Shown: piece by piece, positions 1 to 27,993 of the stretch
How positions within the stretch are numbered: the stretch's first letter is position 1
Layout: the number at the start of each line of letters is the position of its first letter
Virus record (IMG/VR): IMGVR_UViG_3300025309_000043
Location: 1-27,993 of that record
Direction: 5' to 3' (one strand)
DNA length: 27,993 nucleotides
DNA from: a virus
Notes under the pieces: model-generated
Databases searched by the model: none
What the model saw: only the letters and a program-made list of their open reading frames with translations
What the model was told of the DNA's origin: nothing
Program-made: the position numbers and the translations under genes

Positions 1-135
1 GAAGGTTATCTGGAGCAGTTCGCTCACCGTCATGCCTTTCGGCATTTCCAGACCGGGGCCGCCGGCGTATGCCGCCAGCGAGAAAACCGCGAGAATAATA
101 AAAGCCAGGGCGATGCTGATTTTGTAATTTTTCAT
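1..135 (-). CDS. Exported protein of unknown function, 3' end cut by window edge
   Basis: The first 45 codons of a leftward gene are visible. They encode a short charged start (MKNYK), a hydrophobic segment of about 18 residues and an AYA-GG cleavage site, which together form a Sec signal peptide. The mature part begins GGPGLEMPKGMTVSELLQ. The start is set by AAGGAG seven bases upstream of the ATG. It is the last visible gene of the leftward late arm. A structured RNA leader (170-330) lies directly upstream, so expression may be controlled by that RNA. The family is not recognised and the gene continues beyond position 1. Signal peptides are uncommon among phage structural genes, so a role in the cell envelope (lysis, exclusion) or a cargo gene is possible, but that is inference. 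Confidence 0.75.
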   Translation of the reverse strand, partial: MKNYKISIALAFIILAVFSLAAYAGGPGLEMPKGMTVSELLQITF

Positions 136-169: not shown

Positions 170-244
170 GGATGCGAGAGGAATTGCACCCCCATTCCGG
201 GCGGTTAGGTGGACCCGGCGTCCTTCTGGTTAGACGACGCACCC
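170..244 (-). ncRNA. tRNA-like cloverleaf with a 12-nt anticodon loop
   Basis: Read on the - strand from 244 down to 170, the sequence forms a tRNA shape. The acceptor stem has 7 bp (244-238 with 176-170, one G-U). A two-base joint follows, then a 4-bp D stem (235-232 with 223-220) with loop AACCAGAA. After one base comes a 5-bp anticodon stem, CCGGG/CCCGG (218-214 with 201-197). A 3-base variable region leads to a 5-bp T stem (193-189 with 181-177, two G-U) with 7-base loop TGCAATT, which keeps T54, C56 and A58. The anticodon loop is 12 bases (TCCACCTAACCG) instead of 7, so it should not decode normally. No CCA is encoded: the bases after the acceptor are GATA. The D, T and anticodon stems recall a Glu/Gln-type tRNA. 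It lies between two late genes. Whether it is a tRNA mimic, a decayed phage tRNA or a leader element is not settled. Confidence 0.62.
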
Positions 245-2158: not shown

Positions 2159-3091
2159 TTATGCGCAGGTGTCTTTTATGAGATATCCCGCGCTGGGCCA
2201 TACGACGGCTACGCCGAAGTTATCCGTATTTCTTACGTTTTCGACTTTTCCGCCTTCGGTGAAGAACGAATCCACGTACGGATTACCGGTTCTGCGCGGC
2301 GTATAACCGAAAGAAGGCTCTTCGGGCAATCTTAATTCGCCGGCGCCTTTATTCGGAACGTATGCCATAATGGCGTTATCTTCCCACAGGTCGAAGAACT
2401 GGCCGTTCGGCTTATCCGCGTATATTCCCAGGCCGACGACGATCTCGTCGAAACCCAGTATTGTTTTCAGGTCATCGACCGTTACAACGGCCTTGCCCGA
2501 ATATTTTATCCTTTCTATGATCGCCGGATGTTCCACCAGAGCTTCAAAAGCCGTGACGCCCAGGCCGAGGCGATTGGGATATTTGCCTATGGTCTTTCTT
2601 ATCTGGCTTTTGGCCGTTTTTATCTGATCGATCGGGTCTGACTTGGTTTTATTCGTCCATTTGTTATCGGCGGTAAGGGTGACTTTGTGATTCACCGGAT
2701 ATGTGCTCAGGTCCTGCAGCAGGTCGGCCGTCATTTTTTCGCGTCTCAGCTGTATGCCGTTAACGACGGTTTTTGTGCCCAGAATCTTGAGCGGATATAT
2801 CGATTCTTTGCCTTCCCTGTAGTCGATAGGATAGGCGAGATCGTGTTCGTCGGTAACGAGCGCGATCTTCCCTAAGTCGCTGGGTTTCATGAAGTTGGTT
2901 GCGCCGCGTGCGGCCCTTTCGGTTTTGTATATAAGAAACGCCGTTTTGTCGAATACCGGTATCTGCGATTCTTCTTTATCGACCGGAACTATAGGGCAGA
3001 ATTTTTCCGCTATAAATTCCGAATTCGAAAAGCCTATGGCTATAGTTGTCAGTACCGGCTCGATCATCCTTAAATTTTTTAACCTGTCCAT
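2159..3091 (-). CDS. Major capsid protein
   Basis: The 310-residue protein is the probable main shell subunit, of the HK97 fold by family. It opens with an N-terminal region used in assembly (RMIEPVLTTIAIGFSN, EFIAEKFCPIVPV), has a middle helix-rich part (PNRLGLGVTAFEALVEHP) and ends with beta segments (NAIMAYVPNKG, SFGYTPRRTGNPYVDSF). These stretches recur in capsid proteins of Mu-like and related phages. AGGAGG lies five bases before the ATG, a strong site suiting a highly made protein. It sits between the protease/scaffold gene and the decoration gene, exactly where the shell gene is expected. Confidence 0.82.
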   Translation of the reverse strand: MDRLKNLRMIEPVLTTIAIGFSNSEFIAEKFCPIVPVDKEESQIPVFDKTAFLIYKTERAARGATNFMKPSDLGKIALVTDEHDLAYPIDYREGKESIYPLKILGTKTVVNGIQLRREKMTADLLQDLSTYPVNHKVTLTADNKWTNKTKSDPIDQIKTAKSQIRKTIGKYPNRLGLGVTAFEALVEHPAIIERIKYSGKAVVTVDDLKTILGFDEIVVGLGIYADKPNGQFFDLWEDNAIMAYVPNKGAGELRLPEEPSFGYTPRRTGNPYVDSFFTEGGKVENVRNTDNFGVAVVWPSAGYLIKDTCA

Positions 3092-3154
3092 AATTACCTC
3101 CTGGTTATTTTTTTATCGCTCGTAAACTTTATGTAAAAGGATTTTAAAATGAAG

Positions 3155-3706
3155 TTAAATTGTCGCCATAACCGCGACTTCGTAACTTACTTTATTCTTC
3201 TCGGCATACTCTTTTGCTCTTTTGTGGTGTTCGATTTCGGCGGGATTGACGGCCGCGCCGGGCGGAATCGCGAAATCTGTTTTAGCCGCGGCCGCGCCGC
3301 CCTGCTGCTGGGCCGCCGAACTTCTGGTGGCGACTTCGCTGTATTCGGCGGCTTTCGGCAGCCGTTTTAAGAATTCCTGAAACCGCTCGATAGCGGGCCT
3401 TTCTCCGCCTTCGGCGAAGTTATATTTGCCGCGTTCATCGAGTATTTCCATAAAGTCCACGACCGTGGCATGCTGGTCAGCCGGCAGGCCGTCGATTTCC
3501 TTGCAGAACGAACCGAATTCCGTCCGGCGCTTCTCGCGCTCGATCTTCTGGAGTTTTTCTTTTAACGCTTTGTTTTCGTTCTCGACGGTTTTGTTTTTTT
3601 CGGAAAATTCGCTGATCGTTTTGTCCTTTTCGGCCAGGGTTTTGTCCTTAGCCAGATTCTCGCGTTCCTGCTCGTGAAGTTTCTTTTCCGTTTCTTTAGG
3701 GTCCAT
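3155..3706 (-). CDS. Nested scaffold protein (Mu Z-like) from an internal start
   Basis: Inside the protease gene, AGGAGG (3719-3714) lies seven bases before an in-frame ATG at 3706 (residue 145 of the long form, MDPKETEKKLHEQ). This is a better ribosome site than that of the full gene. It would give a 183-residue scaffold lacking the protease domain: a long charged coiled coil, then an alanine- and proline-rich tail. In phage Mu the scaffold Z is made in the same way from within gene I, so the arrangement has a known parallel. The shorter form would be the abundant core filler and the long form the minor protease subunit. Confidence 0.65.
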   Translation of the reverse strand: MDPKETEKKLHEQERENLAKDKTLAEKDKTISEFSEKNKTVENENKALKEKLQKIEREKRRTEFGSFCKEIDGLPADQHATVVDFMEILDERGKYNFAEGGERPAIERFQEFLKRLPKAAEYSEVATRSSAAQQQGGAAAAKTDFAIPPGAAVNPAEIEHHKRAKEYAEKNKVSYEVAVMATI

Positions 3707-4138
3707 TTCATTACCTCCTGTTAAATTTTGCGTGAATTCTATTACCCTTGATGTTTGATCTTCGCTGAACTGGATATCTCTCAATCCCTTGACAGCCGGT
3801 TTTTTAGCTCCCAGAAAGCCTATATGATTTACCGTGAGATCTTCGTTTATCGAAATCGATCTTTTTTTAAAATGTCCCTGCTCGACCAGGTCGGCGAATT
3901 CATCCGTCAGTTCCAGGTCGGCAAAAAGGTGCACGCCGTCGCTTTCAAATTTCTTGACCCAGCCATAAGCCGGAGCGTTTAACGCCGGATGACCGATCAC
4001 GACCGGCACTTCGTCTTTTTCCGGATTATACTTTCCAGCGGCTTCTTTTAATTCTTCGGGCGTCCAGTCTTTTTCAAAGCCGTTTTTGTCGGTATGCGTT
4101 CCTATTTTAAATACAGCCACTTTGTTGAACCTTTTCAT
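3155..4138 (-). CDS. Mu I-like prohead protease with C-terminal scaffold
   Basis: The protein has 327 residues from the ATG at 4138. An upstream in-frame start at 4171 exists, but its extra residues (MGYKKAETGCF) do not look like part of the domain. Residues 1-125 form the protease: FKIGTHTDKNG, PVVIGHPALNAPAYGWV with H50, KKRSISI with S94, and GFLGAKKPAVKGL, the pattern of Mu I-type head maturation proteases. Residues about 145-230 are a highly charged coiled coil (scaffold), and the C-terminal 100 residues are alanine-rich. The enzyme would cut the scaffold and itself during capsid maturation. It is the first gene of the leftward late arm, next to the operator array at 4200-4282. A nested start for the scaffold alone is listed separately. 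Confidence 0.8.
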   Translation of the reverse strand: MKRFNKVAVFKIGTHTDKNGFEKDWTPEELKEAAGKYNPEKDEVPVVIGHPALNAPAYGWVKKFESDGVHLFADLELTDEFADLVEQGHFKKRSISINEDLTVNHIGFLGAKKPAVKGLRDIQFSEDQTSRVIEFTQNLTGGNEMDPKETEKKLHEQERENLAKDKTLAEKDKTISEFSEKNKTVENENKALKEKLQKIEREKRRTEFGSFCKEIDGLPADQHATVVDFMEILDERGKYNFAEGGERPAIERFQEFLKRLPKAAEYSEVATRSSAAQQQGGAAAAKTDFAIPPGAAVNPAEIEHHKRAKEYAEKNKVSYEVAVMATI

Positions 4139-4199
4139 AAAACACCCCGTTTCCGCTTTCTTATAGCCCATGATAACAAAACAAGCCGGGCATTATTAC

Positions 4200-4282
4200 T
4201 GAACCCGTTCACTATTTTCGAAATCTATTTTTTTGAACCCGTTCGCTAAAACTCCCGCCGAAATTACTGAACCCGTTCACTA
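4200..4282. promoter_or_regulatory. Three dyad operators at exact 34-bp spacing between divergent late arms
   Basis: TGAACCCGTTCACTA occurs at 4200-4214 and 4268-4282, and TGAACCCGTTCGCTA at 4234-4248. Each has the dyad TGAAC-CC-GTTC(A/G). The interval is 34 bp in both cases, and the outer two copies share 20 bases. The first copy lies 61 bases before the leftward protease start and the last copy abuts the rightward -10 region. Operators centred about 41 bases before a start site, next to poor -35 boxes, are typical of activator-dependent promoters. The likely binder is the Mor-type activator encoded at 12655-12975 (inference). Confidence 0.7.
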
Positions 4283-4309
4283 ACTTTTTAATGTTGTTTG
4301 CTATATAAT
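4281..4309 (+). promoter_or_regulatory. Candidate activator-dependent rightward late promoter
   Basis: A consensus -10 box TATAAT lies at 4304-4309, but the -35 position 17 bases upstream reads TAACTT, a poor match that abuts the third operator dyad. The expected start of transcription is near 4316, which puts the dyad centre at about -41. It would drive the rightward arm from 4349. A weaker possible counterpart for the leftward arm is TATCAT on the - strand (4175-4170), similarly placed from the first dyad. Confidence 0.5.
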
Positions 4310-4348
4310 GGGTTTTGAATATTGATTTTAATTCGTGAAAGGAACTAT

Positions 4349-4714
4349 ATGGAAGAAATGAAATTTTATATGTCGATGATACAGACCGGAAGCGCAATCG
4401 CTATACTGGGAATCGTTTTATACGTTTTCTTCAACTTTTATCGAAACAAAGACGAAAAAAACGACACTGCCATAAAAGACCGGGAAAACAAATTATTGGA
4501 TAAGTATTATGAAAGCAATCTGCGTTTTTTTGAAGAATTGAAAGCACGGGATCTTCATAGCCAGGAATTTATTCTGGCCCTGCTTGAAAAGATGGATTTA
4601 TACAATGAACGGCTGTCAAAGTTAATTGAAAAAATTGAAACAAACCAATTTTGCCCGTTAATGAACATTAAAAATCAAAAAAAGAACCAGAAAGGCGGCG
4701 ATAATAATGAGTGA
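4349..4714 (+). CDS. Small membrane protein, first gene of the rightward late arm
   Basis: The 121-residue protein starts at ATG 4349 after GAAAGGA; an upstream in-frame TTG at 4322 lacks a good ribosome site. It has one membrane helix (residues about 8-28, with SAIAILGIVLYVFFNF) followed by a long charged helical region (KDRENKLLDKYYESNLRFF, ALLEKMDLYNERLSKLIEKI) that probably forms a coiled coil. Its C-terminus overlaps the next gene. A small membrane protein ahead of the terminase genes is common in Mu-like phages, where holins or lysis helpers occur, but one helix and a long cytoplasmic tail do not decide the function. No family is recognised. Confidence 0.65.
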   Translation: MEEMKFYMSMIQTGSAIAILGIVLYVFFNFYRNKDEKNDTAIKDRENKLLDKYYESNLRFFEELKARDLHSQEFILALLEKMDLYNERLSKLIEKIETNQFCPLMNIKNQKKNQKGGDNNE

Positions 4715-21617: not shown

Positions 21618-21809
21618 ATGAAACAATGCTCTAAATGTGGTCAAAACAATCAAGACTATGTCGATAATTGTGTAACTTGTGGTTGTAATGTTTTTAGCGT
21701 CTCACCTCAAGTTATATATGTCGAAACTCAAAAAGGATGTTCATGTGGACTACTATTAACAATTGCTGGCGGAATAGTGTTGGCCGTGATTATTTGTTCA
21801 TTGCTTTAA
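21618..21809 (+). CDS. Zinc-ribbon single-pass membrane protein
   Basis: ATG 21618 is chosen because the protein then begins MKQCSKCGQNNQDYVDNCVT directly with the zinc ribbon (CSKCG, then CVTCGC); an upstream TTG at 21600 gives six more residues. After a short linker comes a C-terminal membrane helix (LLLTIAGGIVLAVIICSLL). The 63-residue product resembles small zinc-ribbon membrane proteins of bacteria. It lies 48 bases after the repressor in the same direction, so it may be expressed in the lysogen. It could be a superinfection-exclusion or regulatory protein, or a host gene beyond the prophage end. Confidence 0.6.
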   Translation: MKQCSKCGQNNQDYVDNCVTCGCNVFSVSPQVIYVETQKGCSCGLLLTIAGGIVLAVIICSLL

Positions 21810-22159
21810 ATATAGGCTCTGTTTTTTTATCATTGACGGCATATGTAATAAATCAATATTATTTAAAAATAAATTACCAAAATATTATTTTTTCCTCGTT
21901 TTGGAACGACTTTTGTGCTGGAGTTTTTATATTATCGTATTCAAACATTTTGCTTTCGTTTTATAAATACCGTAATATAAAATTAGATACTTTAACTAAA
22001 ATTATTGGTTTTTCTTTAATCGTTGCCTCGTATTGGGAATATATTACCCCATTATATAATAAAAGCAGTATATCAGATCCTTTAGATATTCTCATGTATA
22101 CACTTGGAGCGTTGTTTTATTATTTTACAGTTATTGCTTGTTTTTATGCGGTTTTATAG
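21737..22159 (+). CDS. Multi-pass membrane protein of unknown function
   Basis: The frame overlaps the zinc-ribbon gene by 73 bases if started at 21737; an in-frame TTG at 21794 would shorten the overlap and still give about 120 residues. The product has about four membrane helices (IALNIGSVFLSLTAYVINQ, FCAGVFILSYSNILLSF, IIGFSLIVASYWEYI, LMYTLGALFYYFTVIACF). The segment YWEYITPLYN-SDPLDILMY, with acidic residues between helices, recalls VanZ-like membrane proteins, but this is weak. It is AT-rich like its neighbours. Lysogenic cargo or host gene cannot be told apart here. Confidence 0.55.
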   Translation: MFMWTTINNCWRNSVGRDYLFIALNIGSVFLSLTAYVINQYYLKINYQNIIFSSFWNDFCAGVFILSYSNILLSFYKYRNIKLDTLTKIIGFSLIVASYWEYITPLYNKSSISDPLDILMYTLGALFYYFTVIACFYAVL

Positions 22160-22182
22160 ATTTTGTCCCTACCTTTTTCGGT

Positions 22183-22308
22183 TGTCCCCACTTTTGAAAA
22201 AAAAGGGGGGACAGAAGTTAAGATTTATTTTGGGCTAAACTCAATGTTAAATGCTATTATAATTTTTTTGTAGTATTTTTTCTTGTCCCCACCAAAGGAG
22301 GGGACAAG
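22183..22308. repeat. Pair of GTCCCC/GGGGAC palindromes (REP-like)
   Basis: TGTCCCC (22183-22189) pairs with GGGGACA (22207-22213), and CTTGTCCCC (22282-22290) pairs with GGGGACAAG (22300-22308) around loop ACCAAAGGA, whose CC and GG can also pair. A third GTCCC occurs at 22165. Such elements are typical of repeated intergenic palindromes. The gap 22160-22440 holds otherwise only a 17-codon frame (22319-22372) that looks non-coding. Confidence 0.6.
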
Positions 22309-22379
22309 AGTTTTATAAATGTATATTGAAAAACTTGAACAAATAGACAAAACTTTAAAACAAACAAGATAATTTAAAA

Positions 22380-22408
22380 CCGCCCGGCCTTTTTATGGGC
22401 ACGGGCGG
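22380..22408. terminator. GC-rich hairpin, possible leftward terminator
   Basis: CCGCCCG (22380-22386) pairs with CGGGCGG (22402-22408). On the - strand it is followed by TTTTAAATT, so it could stop leftward transcription. On the + strand no T tract follows; it would be part of the leader of the gene at 22441. Confidence 0.4.
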
Positions 22409-22440
22409 CGGGGTAAAAATCATTATAGTGAGGAGTTAAT

Positions 22441-23034
22441 TTGTTTAAAAAAATTGTATTATGCTTAATTGCTATTGGCTTTTTTATGACGCTAAGTACC
22501 GAAAGTATTGCCGGCCCTACAAAAAAAATAATAATTTTGCCCTTGGTTAACAAAATTAACTCTGATGTAGCCGCTGTCGCTTTTATTTATAGGCGGGCAA
22601 ATTATAGAGAATATATCGGAGCCGTTCAAAGCTCCTTCGATTCGGTGATCAAGCAAAAATTTCCAGCTACGGAATTCAAAATAGTTGATAATTTAGAAAT
22701 AGCCGACCTTATTAAAGCCCAGGGCTACGACTTAAGCGCTTTCGATATGCCTGATAAAGAAACTCTTAAAGCCATAGCTGAAGCCTCACAAGCAAACTTG
22801 GTTATAGCGGTCGAGGCGTCTAATTTAGGAACCTGTTTTGTTCCTTATCACACTGGCCGCTCTCCATGGTTTTTATCCTGCCTTATAAGAAGTTATGATT
22901 CGTCAACCAAAAAGTATTTAACTCGATATTTTAATCATACCGATACTTTTGGCTCTGGTGAACGTGGCGGTGATATCAATGGAGCTATTACCAAGATCGC
23001 AACTCAAACGTTCGAACTGGCTCTCCAAAAATAA
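22441..23034 (+). CDS. Exported protein with CsgG/TolB-N-like fold
   Basis: The start is TTG 22441, six bases after GAGGAG. The 197-residue product has a signal peptide (basic MFKKI, hydrophobic VLCLIAIGFFMTLSTESIAG) and a mature part starting TKKIIILPLVNKINSD, the beta strand that opens TolB-N, LpoB and CsgG-like domains. It continues with FKIVDNLEIADLIKAQGYDL and IAEASQANLVIAVEAS, which are typical of that alpha/beta fold, where an operon partner or periplasmic ligand is bound. The absence of a lipobox cysteine means it is soluble rather than a lipoprotein. It is likely a host gene outside the prophage. Confidence 0.62.
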   Translation: MFKKIVLCLIAIGFFMTLSTESIAGPTKKIIILPLVNKINSDVAAVAFIYRRANYREYIGAVQSSFDSVIKQKFPATEFKIVDNLEIADLIKAQGYDLSAFDMPDKETLKAIAEASQANLVIAVEASNLGTCFVPYHTGRSPWFLSCLIRSYDSSTKKYLTRYFNHTDTFGSGERGGDINGAITKIATQTFELALQK

Positions 23035-23434
23035 GGGTTTGAGCATATCTTAAATGCATTTTAAACGGGATTTGTTTAGCCTGGATAATCATTCGTATTG
23101 AAAAGCCTTGAAAATATTAGCTTTTATTATAAGATGTTCTGGAATTGCCGTTTGTCTTCAGTCGGCTATAAATCGTTCAAACCCCGTTTAATCAAGAACT
23201 TTGACCGTATTGATAGGCCAGCTAAAACAAAATTTCTGAAATTAATGAAAGAAATTCGTCAAAAACCAGAAAAACCAGCAAGATTTTTTTTGCAGCAATT
23301 TCAGAGAAAAAACGAAACAAACTCAATTTCTATGCGGCTTAACGTCGAAAAACACATTTTCTGGAATTACATATCATTGCATACCAATCCAGTTATTATG
23401 ATGCCTGCTATTTTCTTTTTAATGTTTTTAATCA
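23035..23434. other. Intergenic stretch without a convincing gene
   Basis: The 400 bases between the exported protein gene and the convergent ankyrin gene are AT-rich. A + strand frame from TTG 23098 runs into the antisense of the ankyrin gene, with no ribosome site. A 22-codon - strand frame (23367-23435) starts in the TGATG overlap with the ankyrin stop but has no ribosome site of its own. It may hold remnants of a decayed gene; nothing certain is seen. Confidence 0.5.
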
Positions 23435-26400
23435 TCAGTCTACCTTTAATTTGTAAATTTTATTATTACGTTTCAAACCAGATTTTTTCAAAAGCCTTAT
23501 TATTTTATCCATCTCGCTCTTGCTTACATTATTTCTATCATAATAATCATAAGCGATGTCCAGTGCGTTCTTATTATCGTCGTTCACCGCGTCCACCGGG
23601 CAGTCGCGCTGAATCAGTATATCGGCCGCGCCAAAATTCGAGGCCATGGCAGCCATCATCAACGGCGTCCAGTTAAATAAGGCTCCATGGTTGACATCGG
23701 CGCCGCGGTCGATAAGCATTTCAGTTATATCCGGATTATTTTTATTTAACGCGGCGGTAAACAGTATATTGAATTTCAACTCATCGGTGCTGACGGTTTT
23801 GATATCGGCGCCTTTATCAAGCATATGCGAGATAATGTCGTGATCTTCAGAAAGAGCCGCCAGCATGATCGGCGTGTAACCGATATAATTTTTCTGGTTT
23901 ATATCGCAGCCGTTATCGAGCAATAAATCGAGCTTTTCGATTTTAAAGGCTGTTTGTTTTTCAATAATATCTGAAATAAAAGCGAGCGCATTGCTGCCGT
24001 AGAATTTTAAATTTTTCAAGTTGTCTACATTCCAGTAATTTTCGATGACGTTGTTCATTTCTTTTAATGCTTGTTTAGATGCCCTCGACCTGACATTCAC
24101 ATCCGGTCTGTATTTTAATATTTTTTTAAGATATTCTATCGAATAATCTCTTACGATTTCTATAAAAATAGGGATTTCGTGACCCTCATCATAATTATAA
24201 CGGGTATCTGAATAAGTACCATTCAGACCCACTCCATTTTCAAGTAAAACCTCGAACATCCCGATTTCATTTAATCGAAGCGTCGAACTCAACGCTCTTC
24301 CAAAATTAGCCGACTTCAATTGCGGCGGAATATTTTTAAGAAACTTATTCAGGAAAAATTTGCTTGTCAAAGCCGTTCCGATTATGAGATGTTCAAACAT
24401 TTCCGCGTCGTTTTTATAATAAGGATCCGCGCCTTTGTCGAGCAGCAATTTAATCAAATTGATCGAACCGAATTTCCTGTCATATCGAAACGCCGCGATG
24501 CCAAGCGTCGTGATGTGTTCCGCCGACAAAGGATTATTTGAAAACCTGGTCGGCTGATTGATTTCAACATTCACTTCGGCGCCGTTATCTATAAGATATT
24601 TAGACTTGACAAAATCGCCGCTGAAAAGTATCCGCATAAGCGCGCTCACGCCATAGCGATCCGTATAGTTAATATCGGTACCTTTTGAACGGATTCTTTT
24701 TATAATGCTTTGCGCTTCGGCCATATTTGCGCCTTTTGCCTTGAGCAGCTCGACGGTTTCAGTTCTGCAGCTCGTGATTGCCTCGACCAGAGCATTGATG
24801 CCGTTTGTGTTTTTAGCTTCGATATTCGCGCCATGTTCAATCAACAGGCTCACTGACTCGGTGTTACCGGCCATTGCCGCATACATAAGCGCCGTCGTTC
24901 CCTCGTCGGTATTGTCGTTAACCGAAAAACCTTTATCTATAAGCATTTTTAAAATTCTGGTCCTTCCGTACCAGGCAGCGTATATCAATGGGCTGAACCA
25001 ATTATGATATTTCGTTTTTAAATAAATGCCTTTTTCTATAAAAAGCTGAGATATGTCGTCATATCCATTAAGTATGGAGCATATCAATGGACTCATTTTT
25101 ATATAATATTTAATTTGTTCGACCGGAGGATTTTTGTTTACCTGTATGTCAGGAATTGAATCTAAAATATATTTAACCGTCGAATATTTGTTCAAGTATG
25201 TTGCCGCAAGCAATGGCTCGTCAAATGAAATATAATCATTCGTAATTTTCTTGACAGTTTCTGAAACAAGATATTTTAAAGCGATTTCATGGTTCGAATT
25301 GACTGCCGTGACAATATAGGAATCAGACGACGGATCAATTGTTCTGAGCATTAAACATATAATTTTTTCATCACATTTCAAATTGACTGCCGTCGTAATA
25401 TCGTTATCTTTTAATTTGTAACCGCTCAATAGAATAGACTCTATTGAATTTACATCATTATTTTTAAGTGCGTTTAAAAAGCCTGAATCGTCCTTTTTTG
25501 TATTATTTGAATTATCTGAAAACCAATTCAAAAAATTTTTGCTTTCAGGCATAAATTTTATTTCGGCTTCGTTCTCAATTATGCATCCGGCTTTCTGCAG
25601 CGTTTTTAACGACGCCGCCCTTTTATATTTCAAAGCGTTTTGCAAGTATTGCGATAGATCGATGCCGTTATTTTTTAAATACCTGAGCCCTAGATAATTG
25701 TCCTCAATGATCCATTCGTAAATGTTTATACTATTTATGCCGAACCCGTTTCTGGTAAAAATGTCGACATACTCATGGCGGCCCATCACTATGGCTCTTG
25801 TAAGTGCCTCGGTTATACTTGTTTTATCCGCGCCTTTTAAAATCAGGTATTTCAGTATCTCTTCGTTGCCCGGATTCTCCGCTGCAATACAGATAGGGCA
25901 TTCACCGAAAATGTTTTTATAGTTCACTGCCGCACCGCGCTCGACAAGCAATTTGATTATGTCGAGCAAAGGATTATCGCGAAGAGCAATTATCAGCATC
26001 GAATCGTCATCAGAATATTTGCAATTGACATCAGCGCCTTTTTCTATAAACAGTTTAACTAATTCTAAATTTCGGGATATTAACGCCGCCGCAAGCGGAG
26101 TCAGGTTATTTGATGTTTTAGAATTTATATTTACTTTCAGGTCAATTAACAATTTTACCAGTTCTATTTTACCCTCTATCGTTTTCTGTACCAGAGGGTA
26201 AGTCAAATTTACTTCTTTTTGAGCCAAAAATCTAAAAACATCCGGATCTTCAACTTTAATCAACGCGTCGTTAACATAATTAAAAGAATCAAGATTTTGA
26301 TATTTTGAGATCAATTTGATTACCGGCAGGTTATTTTGTTTTAACGCGCTCAGGTATGAGTTGGAAACGCCCGGCGAATTATTGTCGTTAAAAAGAAGAG

Positions 26401-26635
26401 TTTCCGCTATATCGAGATCGTCAAAAATAATATTTTGAAAAGCGTATTGCCTGTCGTCGAAGAGGACATTAGTATCTGCATTAAAATGAATGGACAGCGA
26501 GACGAGCCAGTGTATTTTATAGTTAATTCCAAAAACGAATGCCTGAGTGGCGTTGGTTAAAAGGTAATAATAAGCTGCCGATGCCAGAAGCACCAGAACT
26601 ATCACAACTTTAATTTTACCGAGTTTAACGCTCAT
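23435..26635 (-). CDS. Large membrane-anchored ankyrin-repeat protein (1066 aa)
   Basis: The protein starts with a membrane helix (VVIVLVLLASAAYYYLLT, residues about 10-27) as its only anchor, then ankyrin repeats along nearly its whole length. At least eleven clear units are seen, with motifs such as LTPLAAALISRNLELVKLFI, TTALMYAAMAGNTESVSLLI and WTPLMMAAMASNFGAADILI, each with the ankyrin hairpin GADVN-type loop. The first 100 residues and the stretch at about 360-520 are more diverged. Ankyrin proteins bind other proteins; most of this one probably lies outside the cytoplasmic membrane. It converges on the preceding gene and follows a smaller membrane protein. Likely host-encoded. Confidence 0.85.
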   Translation of the reverse strand: MSVKLGKIKVVIVLVLLASAAYYYLLTNATQAFVFGINYKIHWLVSLSIHFNADTNVLFDDRQYAFQNIIFDDLDIAETLLFNDNNSPGVSNSYLSALKQNNLPVIKLISKYQNLDSFNYVNDALIKVEDPDVFRFLAQKEVNLTYPLVQKTIEGKIELVKLLIDLKVNINSKTSNNLTPLAAALISRNLELVKLFIEKGADVNCKYSDDDSMLIIALRDNPLLDIIKLLVERGAAVNYKNIFGECPICIAAENPGNEEILKYLILKGADKTSITEALTRAIVMGRHEYVDIFTRNGFGINSINIYEWIIEDNYLGLRYLKNNGIDLSQYLQNALKYKRAASLKTLQKAGCIIENEAEIKFMPESKNFLNWFSDNSNNTKKDDSGFLNALKNNDVNSIESILLSGYKLKDNDITTAVNLKCDEKIICLMLRTIDPSSDSYIVTAVNSNHEIALKYLVSETVKKITNDYISFDEPLLAATYLNKYSTVKYILDSIPDIQVNKNPPVEQIKYYIKMSPLICSILNGYDDISQLFIEKGIYLKTKYHNWFSPLIYAAWYGRTRILKMLIDKGFSVNDNTDEGTTALMYAAMAGNTESVSLLIEHGANIEAKNTNGINALVEAITSCRTETVELLKAKGANMAEAQSIIKRIRSKGTDINYTDRYGVSALMRILFSGDFVKSKYLIDNGAEVNVEINQPTRFSNNPLSAEHITTLGIAAFRYDRKFGSINLIKLLLDKGADPYYKNDAEMFEHLIIGTALTSKFFLNKFLKNIPPQLKSANFGRALSSTLRLNEIGMFEVLLENGVGLNGTYSDTRYNYDEGHEIPIFIEIVRDYSIEYLKKILKYRPDVNVRSRASKQALKEMNNVIENYWNVDNLKNLKFYGSNALAFISDIIEKQTAFKIEKLDLLLDNGCDINQKNYIGYTPIMLAALSEDHDIISHMLDKGADIKTVSTDELKFNILFTAALNKNNPDITEMLIDRGADVNHGALFNWTPLMMAAMASNFGAADILIQRDCPVDAVNDDNKNALDIAYDYYDRNNVSKSEMDKIIRLLKKSGLKRNNKIYKLKVD

Positions 26636-26776
26636 AAAAAATCCGCTGTTATTTGCTATAAATTAGTAAAACACCTGTCAGGAATTGCCGGTCAAATTTT
26701 AACAAAAATTCCAGTAGATGTAAAGTTATATTTAAAATTTATAACATTACATTTCAAATTTAAATGCCAATTATCA

Positions 26777-27217
26777 CTACAGTAAAATTTCCGTGGAGGC
26801 TTCCTGCACTTCAATAGTTTTATGCCTGCTTATTTTGTCAAATTTGATGTCAAATGATTTCGTGCCGAAATAAGGAATAGTTCCGGGTATTTCAACCTTG
26901 AGTTCTTTCTCTTCGGGATTATAAATTTCAAACATGAAATCGCCATTATTATTCGTGACGGTTTCGAGGCCTTTGGCATTGAGCATGATTTTTAAATCTT
27001 TTAAGGGCGAATTATCCGATTTAGAGCGAACTTTCCCTTTAATTCTGAAGCACTTCAATAGTTTTCTGTTGAATGGAGTGGGTGCAGGTCCGTATTTTTC
27101 GGTATGGCTCATTAAAAAAAATAATGGTATTGAAAAAAATGAAATCAACCCAACGAAAAATGCCGTTATTATACTGACTAGTTTAAAGTTACTTTTTTTA
27201 TTTTTATTTTCCGGCAT
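26777..27217 (-). CDS. Membrane protein with carboxypeptidase-regulatory-like domain
   Basis: The 146-residue product has a membrane helix near the N-terminus (SIITAFFVGLISFFSIPLFF, residues about 15-34) and then a beta-sandwich domain. IKGKVRSKSDNSPLKDLKIM, then TVTNNNGDFMFEIYNPEE is the signature of carboxypeptidase-regulatory-like/CnaB-type domains (gly-Lys-V, D-S-PL-x-G-like, T-D-x-G-x-F). Its ATG overlaps the stop of the upstream ankyrin gene by 14 bases, implying coupled translation. It lies 141 bases before the large ankyrin gene. A cell-surface structural or binding role is likely. Confidence 0.72.
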   Translation of the reverse strand: MPENKNKKSNFKLVSIITAFFVGLISFFSIPLFFLMSHTEKYGPAPTPFNRKLLKCFRIKGKVRSKSDNSPLKDLKIMLNAKGLETVTNNNGDFMFEIYNPEEKELKVEIPGTIPYFGTKSFDIKFDKISRHKTIEVQEASTEILL

Positions 27218-27993
27218 TCTCTTTCACTTCCCCGATTTTTCGATTGCCGATATTATTTCTGGCACCTGATTTCATTAGAATATCTAAAATTTCAGGCTTG
27301 ACATAGTTTATGTTCTCAGCGATGTCCAGAACGCTCATCGCTTCATCGTTAATAGCGTTGACATCGGCGCCGTTCTTTATGAGCGCGTCAACTATTTCGA
27401 CGTTTGGGCTCCGAATCGCGAACATTAACGGAGTCCAATCTTTAATGCTTCTTTGATTGACGTTAGCTCCCTTACTTACCAGAAAATTGATAATTTCAGG
27501 ATTTTTACACGTCACGGCGGCTTCCAGAATAGCCGTCCATTTCAGGCCTTCTTTACTGACTAAATTCACGTCACCGCCGTTATCAATCAAAAAGCGCAAA
27601 ACTTCAAGGTTGTTATTTCTGATCGAAAGCATAAGCGGCGTCCAACCCCATACATTTCTGTCATTGAGGTCTGCTCCGCTTTTAATCAATATTTTCATAG
27701 CTTCAATGTTGCACGAATCGACAGCTTCATGCAGAGCGTTCCGGCCGCCGGTAAATGTTATTTTTTGAGAACATGACTTTAAAGAAGTAAGACTGTCTAT
27801 GGTGCATTTGATTGGGTTTGAAGGAAAATCGATATATGAATATACCTTGCAGTCATAATTAATAGCGACTTCATTACTCACGGCTTTGCGATTTACATCC
27901 GCTCCGCGTTTAACAAGCAGCTCGACCGCCGATAAATTGTTATTCCTGACCGCCACCATAAGCGGCGTCCTGCAGATATAATCTCCGCATTCT
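27204..27993 (-). CDS. Ankyrin-repeat protein, 5' end cut by window edge
   Basis: The frame is open to the window edge: upstream of the first in-frame ATG (27959) it continues as ECGDYICRTPLMVAVRNNNL, the start of a standard ankyrin unit, so 27959 is not the real start. Repeats follow about every 33 residues (GRNALHEAVDSCNIEAMKIL, WTPLMLSIRNNNLEVLRFLI, WTPLMFAIRSPNVEIVDALI), each ending GADVN or similar. One insert with cysteines (NYDCKVYSYIDFPS) interrupts the array. It probably forms an operon with the two genes downstream. The visible part carries no membrane segment. Confidence 0.82.
   Translation of the reverse strand, partial: ECGDYICRTPLMVAVRNNNLSAVELLVKRGADVNRKAVSNEVAINYDCKVYSYIDFPSNPIKCTIDSLTSLKSCSQKITFTGGRNALHEAVDSCNIEAMKILIKSGADLNDRNVWGWTPLMLSIRNNNLEVLRFLIDNGGDVNLVSKEGLKWTAILEAAVTCKNPEIINFLVSKGANVNQRSIKDWTPLMFAIRSPNVEIVDALIKNGADVNAINDEAMSVLDIAENINYVKPEILDILMKSGARNNIGNRKIGEVKENAGK

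Follow-up and report, generated by a model that had tools for sequence, protein, structure and literature searches.

A tRNA-like element with a 12-nucleotide anticodon loop in the leader of a predicted late membrane-protein gene of Mu-like phages

The yjdF riboswitch is a tRNA-like leader that regulates translation; it forms a tRNA-shaped four-way junction with a D-loop/T-loop elbow, is tRNA-like by sequence and lies directly upstream of the Shine–Dalgarno (SD) sequence (PMC9142559). Authentic tRNAs grafted into mRNA leaders raise translation 2–6.3 fold, independently of ACCA (PMC9142559). Bacterial Y RNAs, among them YrlA and the cyanobacterial Y RNAs encoded near TROVE/Ro60 genes, contain a non-decoding tRNA-like module, and competitive inhibition of an anticodon nuclease has been suggested for YrlA (PMC7790460). 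RNase P of the host also cuts structured phage transcripts, namely the C4 RNA of P1/P7 and the M3 RNA, together with some mRNAs, and accepts acceptor–T-arm substrates without an anticodon arm (reviewed in PMC11143913).

The phage element described here resembles each of these systems in part. It shares the overall shape and the placement of yjdF but has canonical joints, a 12-nt anticodon loop and a predicted upstream pseudoknot, whereas yjdF has a purine-rich J1/2 ligand pocket; the yjdF Rfam model finds no match at E ≤ 10, the joint here being a 2-nt UC with no purine-rich J1/2. As in Y RNAs there is a tRNA-like module, several Y RNAs also carrying the A18/G55 elbow discussed below. Cyanobacterial Y RNAs, however, have a 57–88-nt Ro60 domain at the anticodon position and an adjoining Ro60 gene, whereas the phage element has a 22-nt hairpin only in its anticodon region, no Ro60-binding stem, and no linked Ro60/TROVE gene in any of the three fragment records that carry it. 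C4 is an antisense RNA, whereas the phage element forms a complete cloverleaf within a late leader and is a candidate substrate only. Beside TROVE genes (L186:7427–7677 and L226–L245), we also observed tRNA-shaped Y RNAs of about 106–136 nt in tandem sets of one to four with linear tRNA order; at the cyanobacterial Ro60 loci the domain that replaces the anticodon arm often contains GGGTTATCG.

The window, by which we mean the whole 27,993-nt stretch that was analysed, is a 28-kb viral record of a Mu-like phage, with matches to Portal_Mu, Mu F, Gp36 and capsid E, and it also encodes Gam and transposition proteins of the MuA and MuB types. The cloverleaf occupies positions 244 to 170 of its minus strand and reads GGGUGCG UC GUCU AACCAGAA GGAC G CCGGG UCCACCUAACCG CCCGG AAU GGGGG UGCAAUU CCUCU CGCAUCC. 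A first-pass annotation had described a tRNA shape here without naming the strand; on the minus strand every feature it listed is present: an acceptor stem of 7 bp, a D arm of 4 bp, an anticodon stem and a T arm of 5 bp each, joints of 2 nt (UC) and 1 nt, a 7-nt T loop, an anticodon loop of 12 nt (UCCACCUAACCG, 202–213) and no encoded CCA, the next bases being GAUAACCC. The variable loop is short, at 3 nt in the window and 4 nt in both relatives.

ARAGORN calls no tRNA at the cloverleaf, and a whole-window Rfam scan with default filters misses it. With lax filters on a 161-bp segment, the Rfam tRNA model RF00005 scores 32.0 bits at minus 244–169 (gathering score 29 bits), and no other Rfam family matches. 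A descriptor specifying perfect 7/4/5/5 stems, U8, A14, a purine-G in the D loop, the T-loop signature and an anticodon loop of 3–20 nt matches once in the window and in none of 150 dinucleotide-shuffled windows. The folding energy is ordinary (z −1.1), and the argument for the cloverleaf is therefore not based on energy.

Although the stems are those of an elongator tRNA, all three members of the family lack a 7-nt anticodon loop with U33 and a readable anticodon, and at 12 nt the predicted loop excludes codon reading. The G18G19/T-Ψ-C elbow is absent as well: the D loop carries A18 G19 and the T loop U54 G55 C56. The G18–U55 elbow pair is usually called near-universal. In a set of 48 tRNA-shaped Y RNAs next to TROVE genes of cyanobacteria, however, all six with G55 lack the D-loop GG (most have AG), whereas 41 of the 42 with U55 retain it (Fisher P = 6e-7). 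The same link holds in tRNA-array loci of viral contigs retrieved by an A18/G55 pattern, where 67 of 75 G55 tRNAs lack the D-loop GG (again mostly AG) against 0 of 35 with U55; several of the eight remaining G55 tRNAs are AGG by eye. Each array locus was drawn in by one seed tRNA, so that the seeds are biased and their neighbours are not. Because the swap is linked in both Y RNAs and phage arrays, the D and T loops of the phage element read as a matched pair seen elsewhere, a coherent predicted elbow rather than damage or two independent losses.

The arrays on viral contigs L297 (199–8092), L255 and L304 (9193–12838), together with L295, consist almost entirely of A18/G55 tRNAs with a GUGC T loop and D-loop AG. 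They share with the leader element the D loop AACCAGNA and the T loop UGCAAUU, but their tRNAs stand in arrays and have 7-nt loops with anticodons, whereas the leader element is single and has a 12-nt loop. The tRNA-Met copies of L297 keep GG/UUC despite their A18/G55 surroundings, and the L304 contig also encodes a TROVE/Ro60-like protein (2857–4599; weak family match). Staphylococcal cell-wall tRNA-Gly provides a further lead: GUGC replaces GTΨC in its T loop, its D-loop GG is altered and EF-Tu uses it poorly, but its anticodon loop is normal and it is aminoacylated.

The whole leader recurs at the same locus in two more viral contigs, G001 (L003/L092) and G002 (L004/L094), which with the window make up a family of three. 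Both relatives have the conserved stems and the long loop anticipated for a functional element. A normal 7-nt loop in relatives had been named as the sign of a decayed tRNA; none is seen, the loop being 12 nt in both and differing from that of the window by one base in G001 (11/12 to 12/12 identity across the two). Between the window and G001, 74 of 76 bases of the tRNA-like element and 79 of the 84 in the 5′ part of the leader are identical; the SD leader is more weakly conserved (29/34), with conservation extending up to the SD and the ATG. Fourfold-degenerate sites of seven genes agree at only 349 of 648 positions (54%) in this pair. Because the element keeps 74/76 bases against that neutral identity (P about 1e-17), the comparison rejects neutral decay of the present-day element. 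Both flanks have diverged between the same two phages (82% in the upstream block by blastn, 60% of amino acids at the downstream N-terminus), which makes a recent short transfer of exactly the leader unlikely. The window and G002 are 96% identical over the leader and gene start and diverge in the flanks; as near-identity extends into the first part of the downstream gene, this pair by itself would not prove selection. The two contigs stop inside the same gene, at points no more than 15 nt apart (window 1–135, L004:1–120), probably at an assembly break in sequence common to co-occurring phages.

Beyond these three phages, neither the element nor its flanking proteins have a relative among 50,697 annotated phages. 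At 80 loci with relatives of the portal protein, other genes and no tRNA-like element occupy the corresponding place, and 80 loci with MuA relatives in Gastranaerophilales contain no such element either. Matches to the R1 model in genomes of the cyanobacterial phylum (31–46 bits) turned out to be ordinary tRNAs for the most part, with Y RNAs as well, and a candidate in L007 is a chance match within coding sequence. A protein-coding reading was also considered, the element lying in G001 within an open frame that enters the downstream gene; it was rejected because the variable loop differs by a 1-nt indel (AAU in the window, AAAU in the relatives), which breaks the frame.

Upstream of the cloverleaf, two stems can form a pseudoknot in all three sequences. 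The 5′ strand of S1 (AGUGCC..GGGCUU, minus strand 316–329) would pair, from 329 to 316, with AAGCCC and GGCACU at 274–289, its pairs being kept in all three members, including one C–G/U–G change. The 9-bp stem S2 would join AGGGGUCAG (minus 293–301) to CUGGCCCCU (minus 251–259, pairing from 259 to 251), 6 nt before the tRNA-like element; it is invariant in the three sequences, and its hairpin has a z of about −2.6 to −3.4. Nested folding draws S2 or S1, never both. Together, S1, S2 and the cloverleaf comprise 42 proposed pairs, and 126 of 126 cells in the three sequences are standard pairs, against 35–59% when the partners are slid by one to three columns. Variation is confined to three pairs, in each of which one side changes and pairing is kept, and the changes in the acceptor stem are solely of this kind (G–U/A–U and C–G/U–G). 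With three one-sided changes and no both-sided covariation in the family, the covariation that the first-pass annotation had proposed as a check is too sparse within three members to be counted. Distant tRNAs were left out of any such count, because MAFFT puts their anticodon stem in the wrong place.

The element sits between two late genes on its own strand. The upstream gene (minus 447–1130) encodes a 227-aa soluble protein that is 78–80% identical in the two relatives and has no Pfam, PHROG or PDB match; it is possibly a lysis enzyme, but an endolysin-like reading was dropped with a structure model of pLDDT 46 only. The downstream gene begins with an ATG at 135 and is cut by the contig end (minus 1–135). 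It encodes a putative exported or membrane protein, with a hydrophobic segment at the N-terminus in the window and, at its full length of 195 aa in G001, two hydrophobic segments; no family matches it, and by topology alone it is possibly holin-like. Its SD (AAGGAG, minus 142–147) is invariant in the three sequences, and the 3′ end of the tRNA-like element lies 22 nt from the SD and 34 nt from the start codon. Neither the window nor G001 shows a sigma-70-type promoter or intrinsic terminator for the element on its strand. Elsewhere in the window (21737–27959), ankyrin-repeat and exported proteins lie past a repressor-like gene and may represent flanking host DNA.

Our preferred reading, held tentatively and at a little under even confidence, is that the element is a tRNA-derived, cis-acting part of a late-operon leader, present in a small set of Mu-like phages, and that RNase P and RNase Z most probably cut it; we favour cis action because the same locus and 12-nt loop recur in three phages and because, in the window and G001, the element shows neither a promoter nor a terminator of its own. 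This agrees with one suggestion of the first-pass annotation, a regulatory leader for the downstream exported-protein gene, which conservation through the SD and ATG also favours. In the model we propose, decoding has been lost and the features that processing enzymes would recognize have been kept, namely the 7-bp acceptor stem, the T arm, G19–C56 and the A18/G55 elbow. A coaxial acceptor–T stem with the G19–C56 elbow is the platform for RNase P and for the ribosomal L1 stalk, and the predicted fold fits such a stem. The 5′ cut would most likely be made by host RNase P just ahead of G244, with trimming near G169 by RNase Z or through exonucleases. The late transcript would thereby be split into an upstream messenger ending in a stable pseudoknot or hairpin and a membrane-protein messenger beginning with a short 5′ leader that bears its SD; the layout of stable fold, tRNA-like element and short SD leader fits such punctuation. 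We infer both the cut itself and that it sets expression of the downstream gene. Against cutting, the 12-nt loop shows no less conservation than the other parts of the element, which simple RNase P punctuation would not call for; there is also neither CCA nor an RCC motif with which RNase P could pair. Cleavage could moreover be slowed in the window by pairing of U245 with G169 and by UAU/AUA, which can lengthen the acceptor stem.

The main rival to the cutting model is an uncut, yjdF-like translation element, an account we consider unlikely but deserving of real weight. Here the fold near the SD would raise or gate translation of the membrane protein, possibly touching the ribosome, and in the off state CCCCUCUAUA, or UUCCU of the T arm, would pair with the SD. 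The short distance from fold to SD is a yjdF-like arrangement, and the stimulation obtained with leader-grafted tRNAs (PMC9142559) is in keeping with it. Pairing of CCCCUCUAUA with the SD is also near in energy to the alternative in the window (−51.6 versus −50.6 kcal/mol; RNAalifold, constrained folds), but the SD-free-hairpin state is clearly better in both relatives, so that a balanced switch is not conserved, and no ligand pocket is evident. Cutting and translational control alike place the element in control of the downstream gene. We think it improbable that the RNA acts in trans as a stable, excised tRNA mimic that binds or distracts a tRNA-binding host factor (an anticodon nuclease, PNPase or a modification enzyme), a role that has been suggested for YrlA or for phage tRNAs. 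An elbow common to Ro60-linked Y RNAs and whole phage tRNA arrays, a conserved non-decoding loop that could serve as bait and the nuclease inhibition suggested for YrlA (PMC7790460) would suit such a mimic, but its position is fixed in one leader, it has no promoter or terminator of its own, and both a Ro60-binding domain and a nearby Ro60/TROVE gene are missing from the three fragment records.

Phage-tRNA ancestry and present function are separate matters. The best match to the R1 model outside the family is a tRNA-Phe(GAA) with a 7-nt loop in phage contig L297 (64 bits), which suggests that the element derived from an L297-type phage tRNA lineage. Of the earlier proposal of a decayed phage tRNA, the ancestry is supported and the present neutral decay is rejected; of the proposed Glu/Gln resemblance, the D arm and the D/anticodon stem are indeed Glu-like, but the best-scoring real tRNA is Phe. 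That match and the existence of other odd-loop phage tRNA-like genes would be expected of a functionless pseudogene, a reading made very improbable by the excess of conservation over fourfold sites and by a loop length identical in three diverged phages. Least probable of all is a DNA-level element, a recombination or exchange hotspot joining modules in which the RNA fold is incidental. The identity of window and G002 over the leader and gene start between diverging flanks, and their shared contig ends, could be so explained, but in the comparison with G001 divergence reaches the edge of the leader on either side, and base changes respect the RNA pairs. Nor does the locus resemble a tRNA remnant at the attP of a tyrosine integrase: the cloverleaf is full, the transposition genes are of MuA/MuB type and no integrase is seen among the ORFs examined.

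Two of these odd-loop genes were found in other viral sequences. A lone tRNA-like gene at L005:2686–2758, on a viral contig whose other products include a chaperonin and a DNA polymerase of family B, has a 6-nt anticodon loop, is called 'tRNA-???' by ARAGORN and scores 57.8 bits to the window model. The other, at L178:7045–7110 (minus) in a phage tRNA cluster, is a cloverleaf flanked by normal tRNA-Thr and tRNA-Glu; its anticodon loop has 4 nt (GGCA), ARAGORN does not call it, and Rfam does not list it at E ≤ 0.1. Separately, short MuA/MuB elements lie just downstream of host tRNA genes in Gastranaerophilales-type genomes (28 loci within L022–L086, for example L023:9605–9965). The tRNAs are of many isotypes, always on the same strand, with their 3′ ends 349–573 nt before the MuA ORF, and the elements have an end motif near TATAGGTTTTCAGGACAGTTGTGATGG; this looks like tRNA-directed insertion.

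The tRNA-like element is thus probably not a dead tRNA gene but a site of control or cutting in a messenger RNA. It belongs to no known family, and with three members its own family of tRNA-like cis RNAs is thin. It may represent a new class of phage cis-regulatory RNA, in which a tRNA of the A18/G55 lineage and a pseudoknot were domesticated together as a leader that controls a late gene for a membrane protein, possibly a holin, and in which the enlarged loop is functional; we regard this as possible, with rather less than even confidence. The predicted cut sites and the distance to the start codon make the element directly testable. The wider pattern, a coordinated swap from G18–U55 to A18/G55, runs through entire tRNA sets of phages and also occurs in some Y RNAs. 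If our reading is true, the leader would be a natural case of a phage tRNA reused to control an mRNA, which has so far been argued mainly from the yjdF riboswitch and from grafted tRNAs.
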